Shown: piece by piece, positions 11,601 through 63,722 of the stretch
Numbering within the stretch: the stretch's first letter is position 1
Layout: each line of letters begins with the position of its first letter
Assembly: GCF_016859285.1 (NCBI RefSeq)
Contig: NC_053414.1
Span: 13,129,517 to 13,193,516, forward strand
Reading direction: 5' to 3'
Source of the DNA: Xiphias gladius
Taxonomy: Eukaryota > Chordata > Actinopteri > Istiophoriformes > Xiphiidae
DNA length: 64,000 bases
Position numbers and translations under genes: made by a program
Notes under the pieces: model-generated
Database searches by the model: none
What the model saw: only the letters and a program-made list of their open reading frames with translations
What the model was told of the DNA's origin: nothing

Positions 11601-13260
11601 CTTGATTTGAGGCCTTTTTAAATTAGGAATAATTACCCACTGATAGCAATAGTGTGTGTGATTGGATGAGACTCACATTATCTGGCACTTGTGGACTGAA
11701 GATTTATGGATGTTTATCCCGTTCTTTTCAAAACGCAGCTCATTTCAACAGAACCACCTCTGCATAAATCTAGACTTTTGAATTAAATTCAGAAATAAAT
11801 AATTATTAGACTGTTTGTTTGATGGCATTTCTGCGTTTTCCCCTTCCTGTTTCTGCAGGATCATCTTTCTCTTTCACAAAAACGGGCACCTGAGTTACAA
11901 AGCCAAAGTGAAGCCTCCCCGACTGAACGGTCGGAGAGTTGGCGTGTACTCCACGCGCAGTCCGCATCGACCCAACGCCTTGGGTCTAACTCTGGCTAAA
12001 CTTGATAAAGTTGTGGGTGAGTGAAATCATCAAAATGTGTCTTACATGGCTAATTGTGTGTTTGTGAGGACCTATGTACAGATTTGGCAGAATGTAGACA
12101 CATCTACATTTCTAAACTCTAAATGCTAGACTACACAGACACACAGAATATTAGTGATAACTTTTTTTTCACTTAAGTCTCAATGTTCAGCTGTGAAATT
12201 TAACCCAAGCCACACAAACAAATAACTGATGTTACTTCACAGTAACAAATGCACTCCTCCCTTTTATATTCTAGGTGACACAATACATCTGTCAGACATT
12301 GACATGATTGCAGGCACCCCAGTCCTGGACATCAAGCCCTACATCCCAGAATACGACTCCCCCCAGACCAGGATTCGCATGGACTTACAGCCTTGTGAAC
12401 TAAACACACACGAACCGAATGCAACTGCTGTGGAGGAGTCAAATACCTTAAACCTCGACGAGGACTCAGAAACAGATGCTCAGTCAGACCGAAAAGGGGA
12501 AAGAGCTGCTGCTGATGACTTGGAGAGTCAGCTCTCAAAAGACAAATCTGAAGCGTTAGGTCTGGAGATTCCTTTAATAGATTCATCTGGAGTCTGTGGT
12601 CAGTTTTCCCTGCGCAGAAACCTGCACGGTGTGCTGGAGGAGGTCAAGGCCTATGTGACCCAAGGTGACTGTTGCCAAAGCGAGGGCCGAGTTTCCGACT
12701 CTCAAACAAGCAAGCCTCCAGAGTCGACAGCGGACCGCCCCTGCTATGGAGAGGAGGCCTACAGCACCATTGCTGGCTGGATCAGAGAGCCTCCCGTTGC
12801 CGGTCTGGAGGTACGCTTCACTCCTCACGCTGAGAGGGAGCTAGCAGAGTTCCTTCCCACACACGTGTCAGGTAAGACAATCTTAACAGTGTAATGAAGC
12901 TCGTTGTCGCCGGGAGAAATATGTGATGTTGTCCTCTTCTCCACAAGAGGGTGCTATTGTGACAGTAATAAATATGAAAGCAGTCATTCATCACTGAAAC
13001 AAAACAACCTTGTATGCCACACAGGACCCGTTGAACGTGTCAGACCCAGGTTCAAGTTTCTGTGCAGTCCAGAGGAGGCTGCTGCCGCAATCAGGGGGGT
13101 GCTGTCAGCAGACCCCCGGTCGGTCTACAGGCGGACACGCTGCAGGGACAGACTCTTCTTCTTCACCCTGGACACGGCTGACATCACCTGCTGGTTTGGA
13201 CAGGGCTTTGCTGAGGTACTGCAGGTCCGACCCGTTGAGTGCCACATTGCCACCATGTAA
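8681..13260 (+). CDS. trmo: tRNA (adenine(37)-N6)-methyltransferase TrmO (6 coding exons)
   Basis: Exons are 8681-8769, 8995-9131, 10921-11095, 11859-12016, 12275-12871 and 13025-13260; joined they are 1392 nt (463 aa; human about 441). The enzyme methylates t6A37 of tRNA-Thr to m6t6A using S-adenosylmethionine. The TrmO/YaeB beta-barrel core spans about residues 80-215, with KNGTPRQP, FNNPEHALAGLEQYSHVW, FHKNGHL, the SAM-site block YSTRSPHRPNALGLTLAKLD (164-183) and GTPVLDIKPYIPEYDSP. A poorly conserved acidic linker follows, then a C-terminal block with LEVRFTPHAERELAEF, VLSADPRSVYRR and CWFGQGFAEVL. Exon 1 (MSPLCDCCGENIS) begins a short coiled N-terminus. Intron 1 ends in a CT run (8955-8976); intron 2 carries a Tc1 remnant and an interspersed repeat. 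Confidence 0.93.
9370..9960 (+). mobile_element. degenerate Tc1/mariner element in trmo intron 2
   Basis: It starts with a TIR-like stretch (CAACGGTTTGGGCACCC) and contains a plus-sense transposase remnant. Its C-terminal part reads, through stops, LILNMLCVQGQPKNIPEPEV and DRKSLRWLQKLFAS, the typical end of a fish Tc1 DDE domain. Several stops and shifts make it dead. Confidence 0.7.
10270..10620. repeat. interspersed repeat, 'GAGCTGCAACTAATGATTAT' family, copy 1
   Basis: It opens with GAGCTGCAACTAATGATTAT and carries TTGGTTCGCTGATTAGTCAT and AACCCAAAGATATTC. The same words recur near 26.2, 26.6, 46.7 and 62.1 kb. Its ends are AT-rich and partly complementary (GATTAGTCATTTAGTCGATG against CAACTAGTCAATTAAATGAC), suggesting a non-autonomous DNA element. 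No coding capacity. Confidence 0.5.
10823..10847. repeat. (AC)n microsatellite
   Basis: About 12 CA units in trmo intron 2, shortly before exon 3. Confidence 0.9.
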
Positions 13261-15396: not shown

Positions 15397-18300
15397 ATGT
15401 CCTCCTTGAAGTCACGTTCCACTGGGGAAGGCTTGGTAAGTCATTTGCACTCTGTCATGCATAGTGTACAGTTTTAAATTATGACTGAGCAAGCTAACAT
15501 CTTATTTCAACTTTTGATGATGTTAGCCTTCCGGAAAATATGGAGAGCGTACCCCTCTGCGAAGTCTGGAGAATAAAATGCTGCACCTGCCAACTCCATC
15601 GTCTAGGCTGAAATCAGGTTGTGATGCAGTGAATACGACAAAGGTGGGTTTATACTAATATTTAGACACGCTCTCATTGTTTTAAATGTCTTTGTGACTT
15701 TTTCTGACCCTCTGTCCATTCTAATGTACAGGGTGAGGTTTCTCTCTGTGCCCCAGAGCCCCACCTGCATTGTCTTCCATCCACCGAAGTCATACAAACC
15801 AGTGCTCCCACGAATGATATGACAACTGCTGAGGCTGCTTATGGACTTGAAGATGTAACATTTAAATCCTTTGTCTGTCCCGGCGGTGAGGTTGAGATTT
15901 CAGGCTCTTTAGTGTGCGCAAAAGAGAGCATTATTTTGCCCAATCATCAGACTGGATATAACAGTGAAACAGAAGATACAGTCATATCAGACAGTATGAT
16001 GGTGCAGTCATGCAGTTGCCACATAGAACATCCCTATCACAATCCAGAGATGATAGATGGTTCCTTGGTTGACATTGATGCAGCATGCTCCTTTGAAATT
16101 CCCAACACCACACCTCTGGCCTCTGGGAGCCTGGATGATAAACATGCCACACAAGATTCAGGAGTTTTTCAGTACGACTGCTGTGGAGAGAAAGATGCCA
16201 ACCGGAAATCCTTTGTCTGTGACGGAGGTGAGGGGGAAGTCGCAGATGTCATCAGACAACATGATGAGACCATTCCTCTGTCCCAGGCAAAGCTTAGTGA
16301 ATGTTTACAGGACAACAGTGTAAATTCAACTACTTTCTCTGACAACGGCCAACTGTGTCAAGCGGAACATGCTGATCGTCCCAACTTTAGCAGCACAAAT
16401 GGTCTTCCTGTCATCACCACCGTCTTTGAGACCCAAAATGGTTTTGAAAAGCCTGCTAATGGACCCAGTGATGTAACCTTCAAATCATTCAACTGCACTG
16501 GTGGTGAGATAGAAATTTCAGATGGCACCAGACTTGTAGATGAGACTGTTCCTCTACTAGCTGACTGCACTGGGACCAGCAGTGTGTCATGCAGTTATAG
16601 TATAAATCAAAGTGTTGTAGCTGGTGACCATGATGCGCAAAACAGTACTGATCATTTAGATCACCCATACTGTAATATTCAAAATTATTCATCAAATTCA
16701 AGTGGCGACCTTTCCATTGCCCAGGGGCTATTGCCAAGCAGCACTGATGCTATGGATGAGGTTAAACAGATTAGCTCGGTGGTACCCGATAGCCAGACTG
16801 GCAGACAGGAAGGGGTTGCATTTGGCTCTTTCATCAGAACTGTGGGTGAGGTTGAAAAATCAAATGGCAGTCGATTGTCTGAGAAGATTTCCCCTCTGCC
16901 CAGTGACCAGGCTGTGATCTGCCAGCCCCTGGATGACAACACTGTACCTACTTATGTTACACAGGATCAAATCCAAGATGACTACGAACAACCTAACTGC
17001 CACGTGGAAAATGATGAACTTGTTTTAGATACTCACCCACCCGCGTTCAACACATCTTCGCCGACTAACATGTTGTTAAAGGCCTTGGATAATGAATCCA
17101 TTAACTGTCAAGTCCAAGAAAAATCGAAGCACTCAGTACAACCTAAAGACAGTGCGTTGTCCTCAATGTTTGCCAAAACAGAGTCTAATGACTGCAGCAA
17201 ACTTGAGGCTTCAGCAGAGAGTCCCACACCTGTGGAAGTGCAGCAGGATCTGGAGCATGTCTGTAACGCGCTTTTAAGCAGTGGACCTCCTGAATCCAGT
17301 GAGGCAAAAGACAGTACCCTCGGCTCATCTGGGAATGGACCTGTTCTTTGTAACTCTGCAGAAAAACTTCATACAGAGAACCTCCCTGATGTTGTGAAAT
17401 TGCTGTCAGAGTGTCCCTCAGCAGCATCAGCTTTGCAGTTTGGAATCCTAAGTCCTGCTGTATCTGTATTAAAAGCTCATAACGATTCTGCTTTGGACAA
17501 TTTTTTAACTAACGACTCTGCTCTCGAGGTTGAAAAGAGCTTGGTGGCTCCTATTAATGCTGGGTTATGGGCAGAGCACTTGGAGAGCCCCATGCCACGT
17601 CCTCTATTCAACTCTACAGCACTGGGTTACAAGCCCCAGTCAGACCCAGGCATTGAGCCGAATGGGGGTGTGGGTATGAAGCCCTGTGCCGTGCCTCAGT
17701 CAGAGGTAGAAAAGCCGGTCCTGGATTTCTCGTTGATTCCAGATGGTCCCCTTCAGCACCAGCTCCGGCAGATGGCAGAGTTCCTCATTTTGGCATCTGG
17801 AAAGATGGGTCCTGCTGCTGTCCCTGCTTCTACTCCACCTCCTGCTTCCGTCACAGTCCCGTCAGCAAGAGCTACTCCTGCAGAATCCCACAGTGTTTGT
17901 GTGGGCACCACTGCTGTGAAACTGGTAGACCGGAGCCTCAATACATCTGGCCAGTTTGAGAGAAAGAGGGCTTTCTCTGTGGTTGATTCCTGCACTCTTA
18001 CTGACCCTCTCCTGTGGAAGTAAGTGTTAGCTATGAATTTATTATTTAATAAAACATTGGTTGTGATTATGACATGGCTAATTCTGCTGTCTGTGTGTTT
18101 CTCTGTCTGCCTTCCTGACTCTTTCTTTCTATCAATGTGGTGTCAGTTTACCTCCAGGCAGTCTAGAATGCCTCCCTAGACACGAGCTGGAGCAGAGGTT
18201 AAGTTGTAGCATGATCATGGTGGAAGCCCTGGTCCAGCAGTTGGCTGCAGCCAGAGCACAGGGATGTCCTCCTGCAGGCCCTGGACCTTCAGAGCTCAGG

Positions 18301-30721: not shown

Positions 30722-31819
30722 TCAGATTGCAGACACAAACCTGTCCATATTCCCTGGGTATGTGGGGTGTCTCAGATAACCCCCAGTGTTGCCGATAGGA
30801 CCTGCAACACTGTTATACTGGGAGAAAGAACCCAGCTGCACTGGGGAGATCCTGCCATAATGGTCCACAGACTCCGCAGGCCCGTGGGGTGAGGCATGGA
30901 GGCGTCCTGTCGCTGCATACCCCTGGGTGTGGCTGTGTCCATATGAGCCCGGGTGTGCATGGTGGTGTGGGTGCCCGTTGGGCCCAGAGTAGGTGAACCC
31001 GGGATGTGTAGAGGAGCGGGATGGCACGGCTCCTCCGCACGGTTGGCTCTGGAAAGCTGGAGCTCCCAGGTTGCAGGGACTGGATCCGCTTGGAAGCCCC
31101 TCAGGAGTGAAGCTCCTGCTGGGCTGCTGCATCACCTCTGGCCCTTGACCTCCCAGCATGCTGGCTGACGGTGGGTGTCCCATGAGGTTGCTGATGCTGA
31201 ACATACGGGTCTGGCCTGGCCCGAAACCAGGAGGGGATGAAGAGGGGTAGTAGGTGGACGGCAGCTGCTGCCCATAGGTTGCACTGACTGTCATGTTGGG
31301 GTAGACTGAGTTGGTATATGCAGCTGACCTGGCAATCTGGACAGGAGAGAAAACTGGCGTCTCATGCATGTATGAGGTGTAGGTGTTCAAGTCACAGCGC
31401 TTAAACCTCTTCCTCCGCCTCAGGAAGCTTCCACTCTCGAACATGTCCTCTGCGTTTGGGTCTAAAGCCCAATAGTTGCCCTTTCCTGGCCGCCCTGGCT
31501 CTCGAGGGATCTTGATAAAACAGTCATTGAGAGTCAGGTTATGGCGGATGGAGTTCTGCCATTTCTTTGAATTGTCTCTGTAGAAGGGGAAACGCTCTGT
31601 GATGAATTTGTAGATGCCCCCCAATGTCAGCTTGCGGTCAGGGGAGTTTGCTATGGCCATGGAAATGAGTGCAATATAGCTGTAAGGGGGTTTCCCCCGC
31701 TGGAGAGGTCTCTTCCTCCTCCGACCTCTGGGCTGCTCCTCTGTCTGTGGCGGAGGGTTGGAGACAGATAAAGTGTCTGCTGGAGAGTCTTTCTCCACTT
31801 TGACCACTGGCATTGTCAT
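30722..31819 (-). CDS. foxe1: forkhead box protein E1, thyroid transcription factor 2 (single exon)
   Basis: One uninterrupted reading frame of 365 aa. FOXE1 is a nuclear DNA-binding factor for thyroid, palate and pharyngeal development. The N-terminus [13 protein letters not shown] contains a SUMO-type site (VKVE). [20 protein letters not shown] starts the forkhead domain (about residues 43-135), with [13 protein letters not shown] and the recognition helix [35 protein letters not shown] and RRRKRFKR follow. The C-terminus [12 protein letters not shown] and DRFVSAI matches human FOXE1 (DFYGRTSPGQFG and DRFVSAM). There is no polyalanine tract; a His-rich stretch (HPHHHAHP, about residue 290) lies in the tail. 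An in-frame Met 23 codons upstream (31888) is possible, but MTMPV suits the family better. Single-exon structure is usual for FOXE1. Confidence 0.93.
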
Positions 31820-32240
31820 GGACAGTTCAAAAATGTCCCGGAAAAACAGATTATAAAGTGAGCTTACTGCAAATGCTGGTAGTTCCACAGCCCGCCTGAG
31901 GAAGACAAATTTGATCCTGGACAGTGGAAACAGACAATCCTTCCAGAAAAATCACATTTGTTTTTCACAATTCAGTGTCTCTGAGTCCAAATCCAACAGT
32001 TCTTCAAAAGCAGTTGAAGTAATTTGCTTTTCCAAGAAATCCCGTTTCATTAAATGCAGTGCTAATTCCACAGTTTGTTGTCAGGTTAAGTTGGAGACCA
32101 AAGCTGTAAAAGCACTATGCGTGGTGTTTAAGGTGTATGTGAGAATGAGTCAACCAGCGTTACCTGAAGAGCGTATTACCTCCGCAGAGCACCTGAGGGG
32201 CCACACCCCCCCAAGTATCACATGCTCTCAACATACCTCA

Positions 32241-50420: not shown

Positions 50421-50479
<59 letters not shown>
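50421..50479. repeat. (GT)n microsatellite, about 29 units
   Basis: The longest perfect dinucleotide run in the window (59 bases). It produces spurious Cys-Val and Thr-His open frames on the two strands. Confidence 0.95.
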
Positions 50480-57133: not shown

Positions 57134-60100
57134 CTAGTGGGGCAGCGGCACCAGGATATCCACGTAGTTGATGGGGAAGAAGCCAGAGTTGCCGTGCAGC
57201 ATCCCCTCGTACCAGTTTTCATCGATCTTATTGGTCAGGGTGATGATGTCACCTTCCTTGAAGCCTAGCTCACCTTCGTTCTCAGGGTCAAAATCGTACA
57301 GTGCACGGCAGCAGGGCTGGTCCATAGGGGCTGGAGAAAAGAAAGACGGTTGGACATATAAGAGAAGAAGAGCAGAGTTAGAAGAGAGACTGCATATAAA
57401 TTAGAGGCATAATGATCACAAAAAAAAAGCTTGTGAAAGGCTCACCTGGAGACCTGGCTGTGAGGGGGGATGGAGGACGTAGCACAGAGGAGAAGACAAG
57501 GCAAGAGAGAGACACAAAACATGACCATCAGTGACTGAAATATTTTAATTAGGCAGGCAGTGTTTTAGGGACTCGTTCAGTGTTGTGGGAAATACGCACA
57601 TTATTCCTGGGACTGTGTCATCACTGCGAAGTACTGGCTGGTTTTTTCTCTTGTTAAACCCCAATCCCTTGCGTTTTACAAGAGATAAGATAAATCTCAT
57701 CTTTGCGTCGCTTGTCTGATTTTGTTTTTGAGAGTGGAATGGGTTCATTATTGACCCTTGTGGCTTTTTAGGGAAGAAACACCTACTACAACTTCAAAGT
57801 ACCGGTTGGTGTTTTCTGCTCTCTGGCCTAAGAGCAGTAATGAGTCCATTATGGCTTATTGCACTACAATGAGGCAAAGAAGATGCCGCACAGGAAAAAT
57901 CAGGTGGACAACAGACACAAAGGTTAGATTTATGCTTTATGGTAAGTGTCCTCAAACTGTATTTTTGATTTTACAAGAGAAAAGACTTTGACGATAAAAA
58001 CTAATTGATTGATTGATTTGGAAAATCTGGTTAATTGCCCCAACCCTGTAAAATAGCACCCTACAGCTGGTTCCCTGCGTTGGTCCGTGGCTCTGTCCAA
58101 AGGTGCATCCAGCACTTCTACAGCTCGCTAATTTACACATTATATCTTGTTTGTTTAATCTTTACAAAAACCGCAGTGTAAAAACAATTCACTGTTTGAT
58201 GGGACTATTTCTTGGCTCTGAGCAGTTGTGAGGCAGCAAGAGATTCCAGGAAGTTACTGCTCCAGGGCAAGAAATAGTCAAGCGCATAACCCCTTAAAAA
58301 TAATTAGTGAGTGAGCTTTAGGGTTCTGGTAGGCAGATTTTGTTGCCTTTGGACAGAATCAAAGCAGCTTTTTCGCCAGCTGCCAGTATTTATGCTAAGG
58401 TAATTGCTAAGTTAACTTGCTGCTGGCTGTAGCTTCGTATTTAGTGTCCAGACATTATCTAAGTCCAAGTGAATAAGCGCATTTCCCAAAATGTCAGACT
58501 ATTCCTTTAACATAAAAAAAGAAAAAAAAAGAGGAATTGATTTAATGAAAGGGGACCAAAGAGAAACCAGGGGTTAGACAGAAGCAGCACTGCAGATGAA
58601 CTGCACTGCAAACAAAAAATGCAGACAAAACACCATTTCCACAGAAGTCCATTTAAAGAAGGATAAAAATAAGAGTGATAGCGAGATTTTGCATCTCTTC
58701 CCAAGTCACTCTTGCTCACCTGGAGATCTTGCTGCAAAGGGGGAAGGAGAAAACAAAGTTGAAAAACAGAATTTTAGCAATAGTATTCTTAGATAGATAA
58801 ATGATGATGAGTAGTTGCAGCAATTAAGAAGACAATAAACAACAAAGCAAGAAGAAACACAAGTTGGACAAGAAATTGAAAGAGAGGCAGACAGACAAAG
58901 AAACAGGAGGAAAAGACCGGTCAGAAGACTGACGAGAAGAGAACACAACAGAAATAGCAAATGCTCGTCTGCTGGCAAGCTTTCATTGGTAATGTCGGCC
59001 TGGGATTCTTTGCACAGTGATCGGACGGCACTTGCTTTTCTGCTGTTTGTTTATATCATTTGAGTAATTTTCTTATTACAAAAGAGACAAACAAAGAGAG
59101 ATAGACAAAAAACAAACAAGAAAGATGAAGCAATGGAAGAAAAATTATATCTCTCTGGGATTCACTTTTGTCTCACCTGGAGACCTTGCTGCAAAGAGGA
59201 AAGAGGAAACAACACGGGGGAGGGGGAAAGGACACAGCAGAAGTGGTTTTGAGTTTAAAGTGGAAATGACGGAATGCTGCTGAGGAAATGAATTGATGAC
59301 ACATTAACGTATTGACAGAGAAAAAAGCACAAGTTTGACCTGGCTCACCTGGAGACCTTGCCCCTAGAAGAATAAACAGAAATTATAAGGGGAAAGAGAA
59401 AAGTGCAGAGTTGTATTTATTTGTTCTGGATTGATGGATATTCTGTTCAGTACAGGTGATAACTGAAATGTTGGGAAAAGAGCTGGGAAAAAGAAAGATA
59501 AAATTAGAAAACACCCTAAATTCTCAAATTTACCTCAATTCATGAAAGCACCATGCTTTTATTTTAAACAGGTTAATCAAAATGTTTCTCTTCTGCTGTA
59601 CAAAAGACCAATTGGATTTTTTTTCTTTAATGTGGAACTAATGTCTATGTATGTATGTGAATTGTGTGTTGTGCTTTATTTCTGTTGTTAATGATTATAC
59701 TTTTTCTATTTGTTACTGTGCACGTAACGTAAGTCTCTGTTAAAAAAGACGTCTCAGTGAAACTGTTTAAATAAAAGACTACTAACTAACCAAATATACT
59801 TTTTCTTACTATTTAAGTAAGAAAGCTCCCTCTTTCTGATTAGCTCCCATTTGTAGTATTTGTTTATCAATGTAGCTGTTTTCAGTTATTACAGACAGTC
59901 CACGTACAGTATGGACTGCATACTTGCATTAAAAGGCTTATAGTAGTTGACTGGACTTAATCCATTCTCTCCTCTGGGGGGCTTTTATTGTGAAAACATC
60001 TGCAGTAAATGTTGCATTTCAGTAGCTCGATGTTAAGAAATGAAAAGCAAATTGACCAAAATTAATCAGTGGGAGTTATGACGGTACAAGTATGAGTATG

Positions 60101-63100
60101 GTCTACTGATTAAATATGCTGTATAACGTAATGTATAATGTACTCTAAATTTACCATGCAATGCATTCAAATACATCTGAAGCATTTAGTCTTTTTGTTT
60201 TATTTGGCCATTTTGACCAGCATCAGTATTGACTTCTATTTGAGAATTTAAAAAGAAAATTAAAAACAAAGAGAGGGTTGTTAAAGGAAAGAAACATGTC
60301 AATTAATAGAAACTAGCCCAGAAACTATCCTTTAAAGGGAAATACTACTACAAATGTTACTGTTGTGTCTTCACATCTGTTGAGACAGAAATTTGTTTCA
60401 ACCCCACTGAGAGACTACAGGGTGCATGCAGAACCAGGACTAGTTTGTGGACATGTTTCTGAACAGTGAGGTTTATATCCTGGCTCACCTGGAGACCTTG
60501 CCCCTAGAAGAATAAACAGAAATTATAAGGGGAAAGAGAAAAGTGCAGAGTTGTATTTATTTGTTCTGGATTGATGGATATTCTGTTCAGTACAGGTGAT
60601 AACTGAAATGTTGGGAAAAGAGCTGGGAAAAAGAACGATAAAATTAGAAAACACCCTAAATTCTCAAATTTACCTCAATTCATGAAAGCACCATGCTTTT
60701 ATTTTAAACAGGTTACTCAAAATGTTTCTCTTCTGCTATACAAAAGACCAATTGGATTTTTTTTCTTTAATGTGGAACTAATGTCTATAGTGTATGTGAA
60801 TTGTGTGTTGTGCTTTATTTCTGTTGTTAATGATTGTACTTTTTTCTATTTGTTACTGTGCACAAGTCTCTGTTAAAAAAGACGTCTCAGTGAAACTGTT
60901 TAAATAAAAGACTACTAACTAACCAAATATACTTTTTCTTACTATTTAAGTAAGAAAGCTCCCTCTTTCTGATTAGCTCCCATTTGTAGTATTTGTTTAT
61001 CAATGTAGCTGTTTTTAGTTATTACAGACAGTCCACGTACAGTATGGACTGCATACTTGCATTAAAAGGCTTATAGTAGTTGACTGGACTTAATCCATTC
61101 TCTCCTCTGGGGGGCTTTTATTGTGAAAACATCTGCAGTAAATGTTGCATTTCAGTAGCTCGATGTTAAGAAATGAAAAGCAAATTGACCAAAATTAATC
61201 AGTGGGAGTTATGACGGTACAAGTATGAGTATGGTCTACTGATTAAATATGCTGTATAACGTAATGTATAATGTACTCTAAATTTACCATGCAATGCATT
61301 CAAATACATCTGAAGCATTTAGTCTTTTTGTTTTATTTGGCCATTTTGACCAGCATCAGTATTGACTTCTATTTGAGAATTTAAAAAGAAAATTAAAAAC
61401 AAAGAGAGGGTTGTTAAAGGAAAGAAACATGTCAATTAATGGAAACTAGCCCAGAAACTATCCTTTAAAGGGAAATACTACTACAAATGTTACTGTTGTG
61501 TCTTCACATCTGTTGAGACAGAAATTTGTTTCAACCCCACTGAGAGACTACAGGGTGCATGCAGAACCAGGACTAGTTTGTGGACATGTTTCTGAACAGT
61601 GAGGTTTATATCCTGGGTCTCACCTGGAGAACGAGCACTGTGGATGCCTCCATTGTGGTTCTCACTGATGGAGAAGTCCAGAGACGTGCGTGGTTTAGGC
61701 ATGTACTCCTTCCTCTGTTTGTTAGAAATGTCCCTTATCCTGCAAAGTTGAAAACAAATAATTCATCAATGCACAAATAATAGAGATTAAAATGAACCTC
61801 ATTCGATTCCTTTGGCAATAACTGGTAAATAGTAATTCAAACGTGACTGAAATCCTACATTTAAGTACATCCAGCGATGCATGCGGAAAGAAAAAGACCC
61901 GGTGGAACAGAAAAGTGTCAATACTGACCGTTCGTCGATCTTACTGGAGAGCTGTGTGAGGATCTCAGCAGCCCGGCTGTGGTACTCTACCTGAGCGTGG
62001 ACCAACGCGGCGAGCTGGCTCACCTGTTCAATCTGTTGATACGCACAGAAGAAGCACAGGATTTACTACGCACCGACACCACTGGCTGATGATTGCTACT
62101 TCTAATTTAAGATTGGGGTGCACTATTTTTTTATTTTTTCAATTAATCATTTAGTCAATGAAATGTCACAAAATTGTGATAAAGTCCATTTTTCCAGAGC
62201 CAAAGTGACATCTTGCGTTTCCATGGTTTGTCTGACCAGCAGTTCACAACCCAAAAATGTTGCATTTACATAAAACAGAAAAAAGCATATCCTCATATTT
62301 GAGATGGCATGTATTTGGGATGTTTGCTGACAAATGGCTCGACCTGTTATTCAGTCATCAAAGCTTGCGCTTAATTTTCTGTTGATGGAATAACCAATTT
62401 GTTAATTGTATATGCAATAATTCAAAATACTCTAGATGTGGATCCTGAACTTGTATGTTAAAACCGTGTGCTCTAAAGGTGACATCTGGTTGAATAAGGA
62501 ATGCGTAAAAACAACAGTGGTTACCATGGATGGCTGATAGGACATTTACAAAGCCATATACAGTAGAATTGACTAATGTGGAGCTGATAATGAAAACAAT
62601 AGGGGTTCCCCGTACGTAAAGGGGTCACAACTCCCAATTCACTGCAATAGTTTGAGATGCACAAGAGGGTAATGGAAATGGATGTAGTAGTTGGATTCAG
62701 AAAAAGTGGAAAGTTAGTAATGGAATAATAAATAGACATGGTTGTAAACTTAGAACATGTAAGGAAACAATACTGGTTGTGTCAATGGGGAATTCAACTA
62801 TTTAACACCAAGCAGGGAGGCCACTAACGCTTACATCACTCTCCAGCAGGTTGAACATGCTCTGCTCAGCAATCTCCTTGGAGTCGTCGAACTTCTCAAG
62901 TGCTTGTTTGATCTCGTCGTCTGTCACTTTGCCCTGACGTTTCTTCTTATAATCAAAGTCCAGACGGCGACCCTCCAGTTTCTTCAGGTGATGCTGCAAA
63001 AGAAGATCAGGTGGTAAATCTGAATCCTTGACCTACAGATGACTTAGATTATTCGTTTTTGTTCCTCCCCCTGTTGTGTAACAGAGTTCTGTACTCGTAC

Positions 63101-63722
63101 TTGAATCTCCTTGAGATCTTTTTCATGGAGGTTCTGCAGTGGATCAATGAAGTTCTGCTTGACCTCCATGTCCAGAGCGTCCTTAACCTCTCCAAGCTCA
63201 CGCATGGCTTCCCCAGCATCAATCAGAGCAAGGCCTGAAAAAAAGAAACACATTCATAAACTAAAACCATATGTATAAAATACATTTCAATGTCAGTGTA
63301 TGGTGTAGAAAAAAGGTTCATCTCTTGTAACACTATCTCATTAGAATATACAGCAGATTCTGAAGACATGTTTTAATCTTTAAACAACATTTTAATACCT
63401 TCAACTTGTGAATAACAGAGGAAACTTCAGGCATCTTGTCTGGAAAATGGGCTCATACATTTTTCACAACATTGTTACTGCATCCTTGAGGGGATAAAAT
63501 TGTACCACTTTGTTCTTGTGAAATATATACAAGTGTTTCTTCTCTTTTTCTGAGAAGCTTTTATGTGATGCGGCTCACCAAAGGTGGACTCCTCTCCGAG
63601 CTCCCTGCCGAACCTCTGCATGGACTCTCCCAGGATGGTCTCGGTCTGTGTGTAGCCTGGTCCCTTCTCCTGGCCCCGGATACGTGACATGGAGTTCATC
63701 ATGCTCATCTTGGCTCTGGTGG
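57134..63722 (-). CDS. sh3gl2: endophilin A1 (SH3GL2-like), 3' part; first exons beyond the right edge
   Basis: Minus-strand exons in order: 63722-63579, 63234-63101, 62993-62835, 62032-61929, 61739-61624, five micro-exons, then 57330-57134 with the stop. Endophilin binds curved membranes and recruits dynamin and synaptojanin in synaptic vesicle endocytosis. The BAR domain part starts at [20 protein letters not shown] (about human residue 65) and includes [39 protein letters not shown] and the [14 protein letters not shown] helix. The linker has PKPRTSLDF and GGIHSARSP. The SH3 domain runs from [20 protein letters not shown] to [20 protein letters not shown] and ends PLPH. PKPRxSLxF and the PH end favour SH3GL2 over SH3GL1 and SH3GL3. 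All joins keep frame. Confidence 0.92.
57446..57457 (-). CDS. sh3gl2: sh3gl2 micro-exon 5 (12 nt)
   Basis: Minus strand: pyrimidine-rich CATCCCCCCTCACAG, then CCAGGTCTCCAG, then GTGAGC. Phase 1-1; it encodes A-R-S-P in the linker just before the SH3 exon. Confidence 0.75.
58200..58510. repeat. interspersed repeat, 'TTTCCCAAAATGTTGAACTA' family, copy 2
   Basis: Matches the end of the block at 42430-42905 (see there). It lies between micro-exons 4 and 5. Confidence 0.55.
58720..58731 (-). CDS. sh3gl2: sh3gl2 micro-exon 4 (12 nt)
   Basis: Minus strand: TTCCCCCTTTGCAG, then CAAGATCTCCAG, then GTGAGC. Phase 1-1; encodes A-R-S-P. The acceptor carries TGC right before AG, as in micro-exon 3. Confidence 0.75.
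59177..59188 (-). CDS. sh3gl2: sh3gl2 micro-exon 3 (12 nt)
   Basis: Minus strand: TTTCCTCTTTGCAG, then CAAGGTCTCCAG, then GTGAGA. Phase 1-1; encodes A-R-S-P. The intron separating it from micro-exon 2 is only 160 bases. Confidence 0.75.
59339..60478. repeat. tandem duplication, unit A (about 1.14 kb)
   Basis: Almost identical to 60479-61614. I count nine small differences by eye, including two short indels (near 59649 and 59724). It contains micro-exon 2 at its left end and the intron segment next to it. Confidence 0.95.
59349..59363 (-). CDS. sh3gl2: sh3gl2 micro-exon 2 (15 nt)
   Basis: Minus strand: CTGTTTATTCTTCTAG, then GGGCAAGGTCTCCAG, then GTGAGC. Phase 1-1; encodes G-A-R-S-P. Identical to micro-exon 1 through the 1.14-kb duplication. 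Confidence 0.72.
60479..61614. repeat. tandem duplication, unit B (about 1.14 kb)
   Basis: Second copy, ending about 10 bases from the 3' end of constitutive exon 61624-61739. The junctions on both sides share CCTGG..CTCACCTGGAGA, that is the donor and last bases of the ARSP exons. Confidence 0.95.
60489..60503 (-). CDS. sh3gl2: sh3gl2 micro-exon 1 (15 nt)
   Basis: Same sequence and splice sites as micro-exon 2. First of the array in transcription order, after the exon ending in S-A-R-S-P-G. Confidence 0.72.
62110..62420. repeat. interspersed repeat family, copy 5
   Basis: TTTCAATTAATCATTTAGTC, TTTGTCTGACCAGCAGTTCA, AACCCAAAAATGTTGC and GTTATTCAGTCATCAAAGC follow the order seen in copies 1-3. 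It lies in the endophilin intron between exons 62835-62993 and 61929-62032. Confidence 0.5.

Follow-up and report, generated by a model that had tools for sequence, protein, structure and literature searches.

Does the sh3gl2 (endophilin-A1) gene of the swordfish Xiphias gladius hold, between the exons for its BAR and SH3 domains, a set of tiny exons from which the linker joining the two domains could be assembled at graded lengths? We examined this question in a window of 64,000 nucleotides (assembly GCF_016859285.1, contig NC_053414.1, positions 13,129,517 to 13,193,516), which the gene enters on the minus strand from past the right end. The intron between the constitutive exon 61739-61624 and the SH3 exon, which starts at 57330, contains five candidate microexons of 15, 15, 12, 12 and 12 nucleotides, numbered here in the order of transcription. 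Every unit has an AG acceptor with a pyrimidine tract and a CCAG/GTGAG donor (the slash marks the splice site), is in phase 1-1 and encodes GARSP or ARSP. The donors of the exon and of the five units read GTGAG[AC] in six of six cases, and the 48 bases before each unit's acceptor AG are free of any other AG, as is also true of the two constitutive acceptors tested. These are consecutive small exons of 3n length in one phase with a repeated peptide, [G]ARSP, as expected of a tandem frame-neutral mini-exon array. A first-pass annotation of this DNA had proposed the five units, and the sequence bears out what it gave for them in position, length, splice sites, phase and peptide. Its statement that any subset of units retains the reading frame agrees with the phase 1-1 anatomy. 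The array is a real set of tiny exons in the DNA, and the observation is confirmed.

The recurrence of the units was compared with chance expectation in several ways. With one mismatch at most allowed, a search of the 64 kb for the shared core TCTCCAGGTGAG hits six places, each of them exactly: the five units and the tail of the exon before them. The number expected is 0.23. A microexon filter (AG, a 3n exon of 6-30 nucleotides free of stop codons, then GTRAG, the acceptor being pyrimidine-rich) applied to the 4.3-kb intron returned exactly the five units from 121 raw AG-3n-GT candidates. When the intron was shuffled 500 times with dinucleotides preserved, the same filter passed on average 0.78 candidates per shuffle and never more than four; none of the 500 shuffles contained an ARSP candidate, and a repeated last-four peptide of any kind appeared in 14. 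Across the 691-Mb genome, the splice-flanked 12-nucleotide ARSP pattern, restricted to TCN serine codons and GTRAG donors, was matched four times, three of them in the array and the fourth without a pyrimidine tract. The splice-flanked 15-nucleotide GARSP pattern was matched twice, both times in the array, so that five of the six pooled matches belong to it. Taken together, the shuffles and the genome-wide pattern counts rule out a chance origin of the array. A search of the intron for broken units, limited to candidates ending in [ST]P, yielded beyond the five a single 24-nucleotide ETCPQTSP candidate, whose tract is weak and whose donor is GTTCT, present twice by way of the duplication described below.

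The assignment of the gene to endophilin-A1 is based on its N-BAR exons together with a C-terminal SH3 domain nearest to SH3GL2. The BAR exons were located by PF03114, which has two matches in the window, and by translated comparison, and all BAR exons found are in frame with the SH3 domain. Among solved structures the SH3 domain of the last coding exon is matched best by endophilin-A1 (2knb, 133.5 bits), followed by endophilin-A3 (2ew3, 129.9 bits), a second endophilin-A1 chain (2dbm, 129.2 bits) and endophilin-A2 (120.9 bits). The margin of A1 over A3 is small, and the paralogue on chromosome C1 is, by eye, nearer A3 in appearance. The exon preceding the array ends in ...GCTCGTTCTCCAG/GTGAG, with the splice site at 61624, and the SH3 exon starts with the remaining two bases of the alanine codon. 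The features of the gene within the window are collected in Table 1.

Table 1 Exons, array units and duplicated segments of sh3gl2, with positions counted from the first letter of the window
Feature	Position	Strand	Length (nucleotides)	Sequence	Peptide or end	Remarks
BAR-domain exon	63579..63722	-			ends STFG	translated match; boundaries by eye from AG and GT
BAR-domain exon	63101..63234	-			ends KEIQ	PF03114 match; boundaries by eye
BAR-domain exon	62835..62993	-			ends LLESD	PF03114 match; boundaries by eye
BAR-domain exon	61929..62032	-			ends SKIDER	boundaries by eye
Last exon before the array	61624..61739	-			own ARSP at end	phase 1
First duplication copy	60485..61630	-				end of exon tail, intron, unit 1; 6 mismatches to second copy
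Second duplication copy	59345..60495	-				end of unit 1, intron, unit 2
Unit 1	60489..60503	-	15	GGGCAAGGTCTCCAG	GARSP	within one copy of the tandem duplication
Unit 2	59349..59363	-	15	GGGCAAGGTCTCCAG	GARSP	same sequence as unit 1
Unit 3	59177..59188	-	12	CAAGGTCTCCAG	ARSP	acceptor TTTGCAG, UGC at -5
Unit 4	58720..58731	-	12	CAAGATCTCCAG	ARSP	AGA arginine codon; acceptor TTTGCAG, UGC at -5
Unit 5	57446..57457	-	12	CCAGGTCTCCAG	ARSP	GCC alanine codon
Last coding exon, coding part	57134..57330	-			AP + SH3 domain MDQPCC...LVPLPH + stop	

We read the locus as a tandem frame-neutral microexon array in the BAR-SH3 linker, in which the choice of units would set the length of the linker and its number of Ser-Pro sites, and we put the probability of this reading at roughly 0.7. 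Each unit would behave as a cassette exon: it has an acceptor to itself, and its donor is near-identical to that of the constitutive exon. Because the donors of units and exon are so alike and each unit has its own acceptor, any donor could be joined to any later acceptor in phase 1-1. The 32 possible splice combinations give 12 distinct linkers carrying one to six Ser-Pro sites, with gains of 0, 4, 5, 8, 9, 10, 12, 13, 14, 17, 18 or 22 residues. With all units skipped, the stretch that runs from RIRD to the SH3-exon methionine comes to about 41 residues by a count on the translation, and full inclusion would therefore make the linker about half longer. The two unit sizes also differ in their effect on sequence context: a 12-nucleotide unit puts arginine at +3 of the preceding serine (S-P-A-R), and a 15-nucleotide unit moves it to +4. 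The S-P-x-R form is the site preferred by cyclin-dependent kinases, and since a 15-nucleotide unit shifts the arginine and leaves a plain S-P, there are as many S-P-x-R sites as 12-nucleotide units included. The units would be spliced in regulated, perhaps neural, combinations, and linker length and phosphorylation would alter the reach or the autoinhibition of the SH3 domain. The endophilin linker is described as flexible, 37-58 residues long, less conserved and less characterised, and as carrying modification sites, and a linker swap changes endocytic function (PMC12457278).

Further scans were made to see how far the array extends within the endophilin-A family of this genome. Paralogue loci on six chromosomes (C14, C12, C1, C6, C18 and C8) were picked by eye from 23 BAR matches; the C18 locus had no match to endophilin queries and was dropped. 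The closest paralogue lies on C12 (18093700-18103699), where the SH3 query is 89% identical and the exon before the SH3 exon ends ...HSAKSPGRSP/gtaggg, with a 12-nucleotide GRSP unit fused inside the exon. From its similarity we infer this copy to be the genome-duplication partner of the sh3gl2 copy in the window. The 1.16-kb linker intron of C12 contains no microexon candidate that passes the filter (0 of 29 raw candidates). The filtered scan of the other paralogues retained 1 of 39 raw candidates on C14, 2 of 107 on C6, none of 142 on C1 and 1 of 58 on C8; none is ARSP, and the sole filtered C8 candidate adjoins the SH3 exon of that gene. On C1 and C8 the exon before the SH3 exon was not pinned down, and the entire span up to the SH3 exon was scanned. 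An unfiltered scan of the five paralogues found one candidate ending in [ST]P, of 27 nucleotides, on C12 and in a poor splice context. The array is not common to the endophilin-A family within the swordfish genome. In the sh3gl2 pair the R-S-P repeat seems labile, and only the window copy has it as separate microexons.

Comparison of the units with one another supports a coding role. Their cores differ by 0-2 bases, and relative to unit 3 there is one change in unit 4, one in unit 5 and three in the exon tail, all five synonymous. The probability of finding only synonymous changes is about 0.007 with all positions free and 0.004 with the last seven bases of the exon held fixed. These differences fit a coding role and are supportive, not conclusive. 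The flanks of units 2-5, splice sites excluded, show no significant likeness in 12 comparisons against 500 dinucleotide shuffles; the three lowest of the 12 were equalled by 25, 29 and 30 of 500 shuffles.

Several observations weigh against the proposed array of selectable units, or limit what can be drawn from it. We infer the use of the units in RNA, namely their inclusion, skipping and tissue control. No such unit turned up in the scanned paralogue regions (C12, C14, C6, C1 and C8), so that the array is possibly young and restricted to one lineage. Without the exon tail the probability of all-synonymous change rises to 0.15 or, with fixed bases, 0.11, which is weak, and the test as a whole draws on few differences in which coding and splice-site constraint are not fully separable. 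Simple shuffles gave high scores to four of six comparisons between the flanks of units 3-5 (reached by 1, 4, 8 and 13 of 200 shuffles), which leaves some room for a remote kinship of these units, although we read the scores as an effect of base composition. Copying of a short donor or exon piece could also give unlike introns, and the age of units 3-5 is unproven. Finally, UGC near the acceptor, at -5, is found in units 3 and 4 only (two of five) and also at -5 in the constitutive exon 61739, and is not diagnostic; neural (SRRM-type) control of the units would be a guess.

Units 1 and 2, each with the intron preceding it, make up a 1.14-kb tandem duplication in which the copies share 1136 identities, with 6 mismatches and 13 gap positions. 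The claim of a five-unit array stands as far as the presence of five units is concerned, but they are not five independent units, two of them stemming from this recent event: four units have been joined by one recent copy. The middle joint follows the donor of unit 2 as far as GTGAGCCAGG and then continues as the sequence of the intron downstream of the constitutive exon. It is thus chimeric, its left side coming from the unit 2 donor and its right side from the exon donor. The simplest account would be an unequal exchange or template switch within the donor-shared TCTCCAGGTGAG(AC)CCAGG, which would add one unit and leave the frame unharmed. A genome search with a 1091-base query, in which very common words were skipped and only the best candidates scored, found no third copy. 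A mobile-element origin of the duplicated intron was unsupported, the same query returning, besides the two local copies, one match of 79 bp on C7 and one of 56 bp on C18, both short. The idea that splicing tunes the linker is plausible, with its anatomy intact (all 32 combinations keep the frame), but has to be corrected on the independence of the units, in view of the tandem duplication, and on conservation, in view of the paralogue scans.

The same duplication raises the question of whether the assembly has placed two alleles in tandem, in which case one 15-nucleotide unit would be an artefact. The copies diverge by about 0.5% through substitution, a value within the allelic range in fish. 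However, the joint is chimeric at a common splice-donor sequence, as a true unequal exchange would leave it, the window is without N, and the genome lacks a third copy among the best candidates scored; we consider an artefact unlikely. A similarly low probability attaches to units that are real but essentially constitutive, giving a longer fixed linker in which nothing is tuned. As this would have it, each acceptor has a long tract rich in pyrimidines and each donor is GTGAG, and the second GRSP unit of the C12 paralogue sits in an exon and hence would be constitutive. Yet exons of 12-15 nucleotides are usually poorly recognised and mostly alternative, and near-identical donors facing competing acceptors would favour mixed products. 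Less probable still, the units would be unused by-products of local exon-end duplications, left unspliced in mature RNA. They are known from DNA alone, the scanned paralogue regions have no array, one unit was copied very recently, and the donor region of the exon took part in a duplication, all of which this account would explain; against it, acceptor, phase, peptide and donor are intact in five of five units, and the differences among them are synonymous only. Recursive (ratchet) splice sites that aid intron removal and leave no peptide are very improbable: the TCTCCAG/GTGAG end of each unit comes near the juxtaposed acceptor and donor that define such sites, but every unit has, 12-15 nucleotides upstream, an AG with a long tract, where a recursive site would have its acceptor abutting the donor within a very long intron, and here the span is only 4.3 kb and peptide and phase are kept.

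An array of tandem units selected by splicing, the reading we prefer, was then set beside what is recorded for related genes. Exons of 12 nucleotides are of a size readily missed by RNA aligners. Microexons are likewise reported to be readily missed by aligners in PMC7821500. A search of PMC12626420, PMC12626424, PMC7821500 and PMC13281805, which include three zebrafish microexon main texts, found no mention of sh3gl or endophilin. On splice variants, a review of endophilin-A states only that each member has several, and the word 'microexon' is absent from it (PMC12457278); endophilin-A3 appears as a binding partner in PMC11445533. Fly eMIC exons are reported to have a UGC near the acceptor and extended AG-exclusion zones, and EndoB has an Srrm3/4-regulated exon whose position is the same in the fly and in the mouse (PMC8797185). 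For neuroendocrine prostate cancer, splicing of endophilin B1 (SH3GLB1/Bif-1) is described in connection with SRRM4 (PMC5891588). The sh3gl2 units resemble these neural SRRM3/4 microexons, endophilin B included, in being short in-frame exons of a synaptic gene, but endophilin B is a separate gene for which the available texts describe no array, and UGC is found in only two of the five sh3gl2 units. Endophilin-A proteins with their splice variants (SH3GL1/2/3) belong to the same family and have the same linker.

The known kind of array that comes closest is that of fast skeletal troponin T (TNNT3), whose exons 4-8 are small. They form an alternatively spliced run located at one end of the gene, most of them falling in a single phase class (PMC2447309). 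In birds there are as many as seven P exons with a repeating His-Glu-rich motif in the variable region, whose inclusion depends on muscle and stage (PMC7581897). The likeness to sh3gl2 lies in a run of same-phase exons and, in birds, in a repeated short motif. Troponin T differs in being a muscle thin-filament protein with an N-terminal acidic segment, whereas the sh3gl2 product is endocytic and the repeat is A-R-S-P with Ser-Pro in an interdomain linker, so far seen in genomic DNA only. By analogy, the locus, which is real and unusual, would be a troponin T kind of device in another gene. The suggestion that such an array had gone undescribed holds for endophilin, since the open-licence literature, among the matches listed, gave us no account of microexons arrayed in this way in the protein; it does not hold more widely, as fast troponin T has comparable arrays (PMC2447309, PMC7581897).

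The remainder of the window contains other features. A single open frame at 30722-31951 on the minus strand encodes a Forkhead domain (E 5.2e-38), and we take this forkhead gene to be FOXE-like. Pieces of a tRNA methyltransferase O gene lie at 12226-13260 on the plus strand, with TrmO_N above and TrmO_C below the cut-off. TRMO and FOXE1 are adjacent in human, and the synteny of the window therefore looks vertebrate-typical. A 771-codon open frame at 15708-18023 on the plus strand has no Pfam match; it shows, by eye, blocks that repeat loosely, DVTFKSFVCPGGEVEIS among them, and is an exon of a gene without family assignment. At 50421-50479 there is a perfect GT dinucleotide repeat of 29.5 copies.

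What the duplication joint illustrates is how such arrays could grow stepwise, by one unit at a time and without a frame shift. Tentatively, and as a possibility that we hold to be less probable than not, the array may be self-seeding: the common TCTCCAG/GTGAG ends would let unequal exchange gain or lose whole in-frame units, and linker length and S-P-x-R number would be set by splicing within animals and by copy number between animals or species, a graded length-and-phosphorylation dial for a synaptic endocytosis protein. If graded splicing is true, the swordfish gene would provide a natural series of linker lengths and Ser-Pro numbers; because both folded domains are unchanged throughout such a series, the contributions of linker length and phosphorylation would become directly testable. 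The endophilin linker is a little-studied part of a central endocytic protein.

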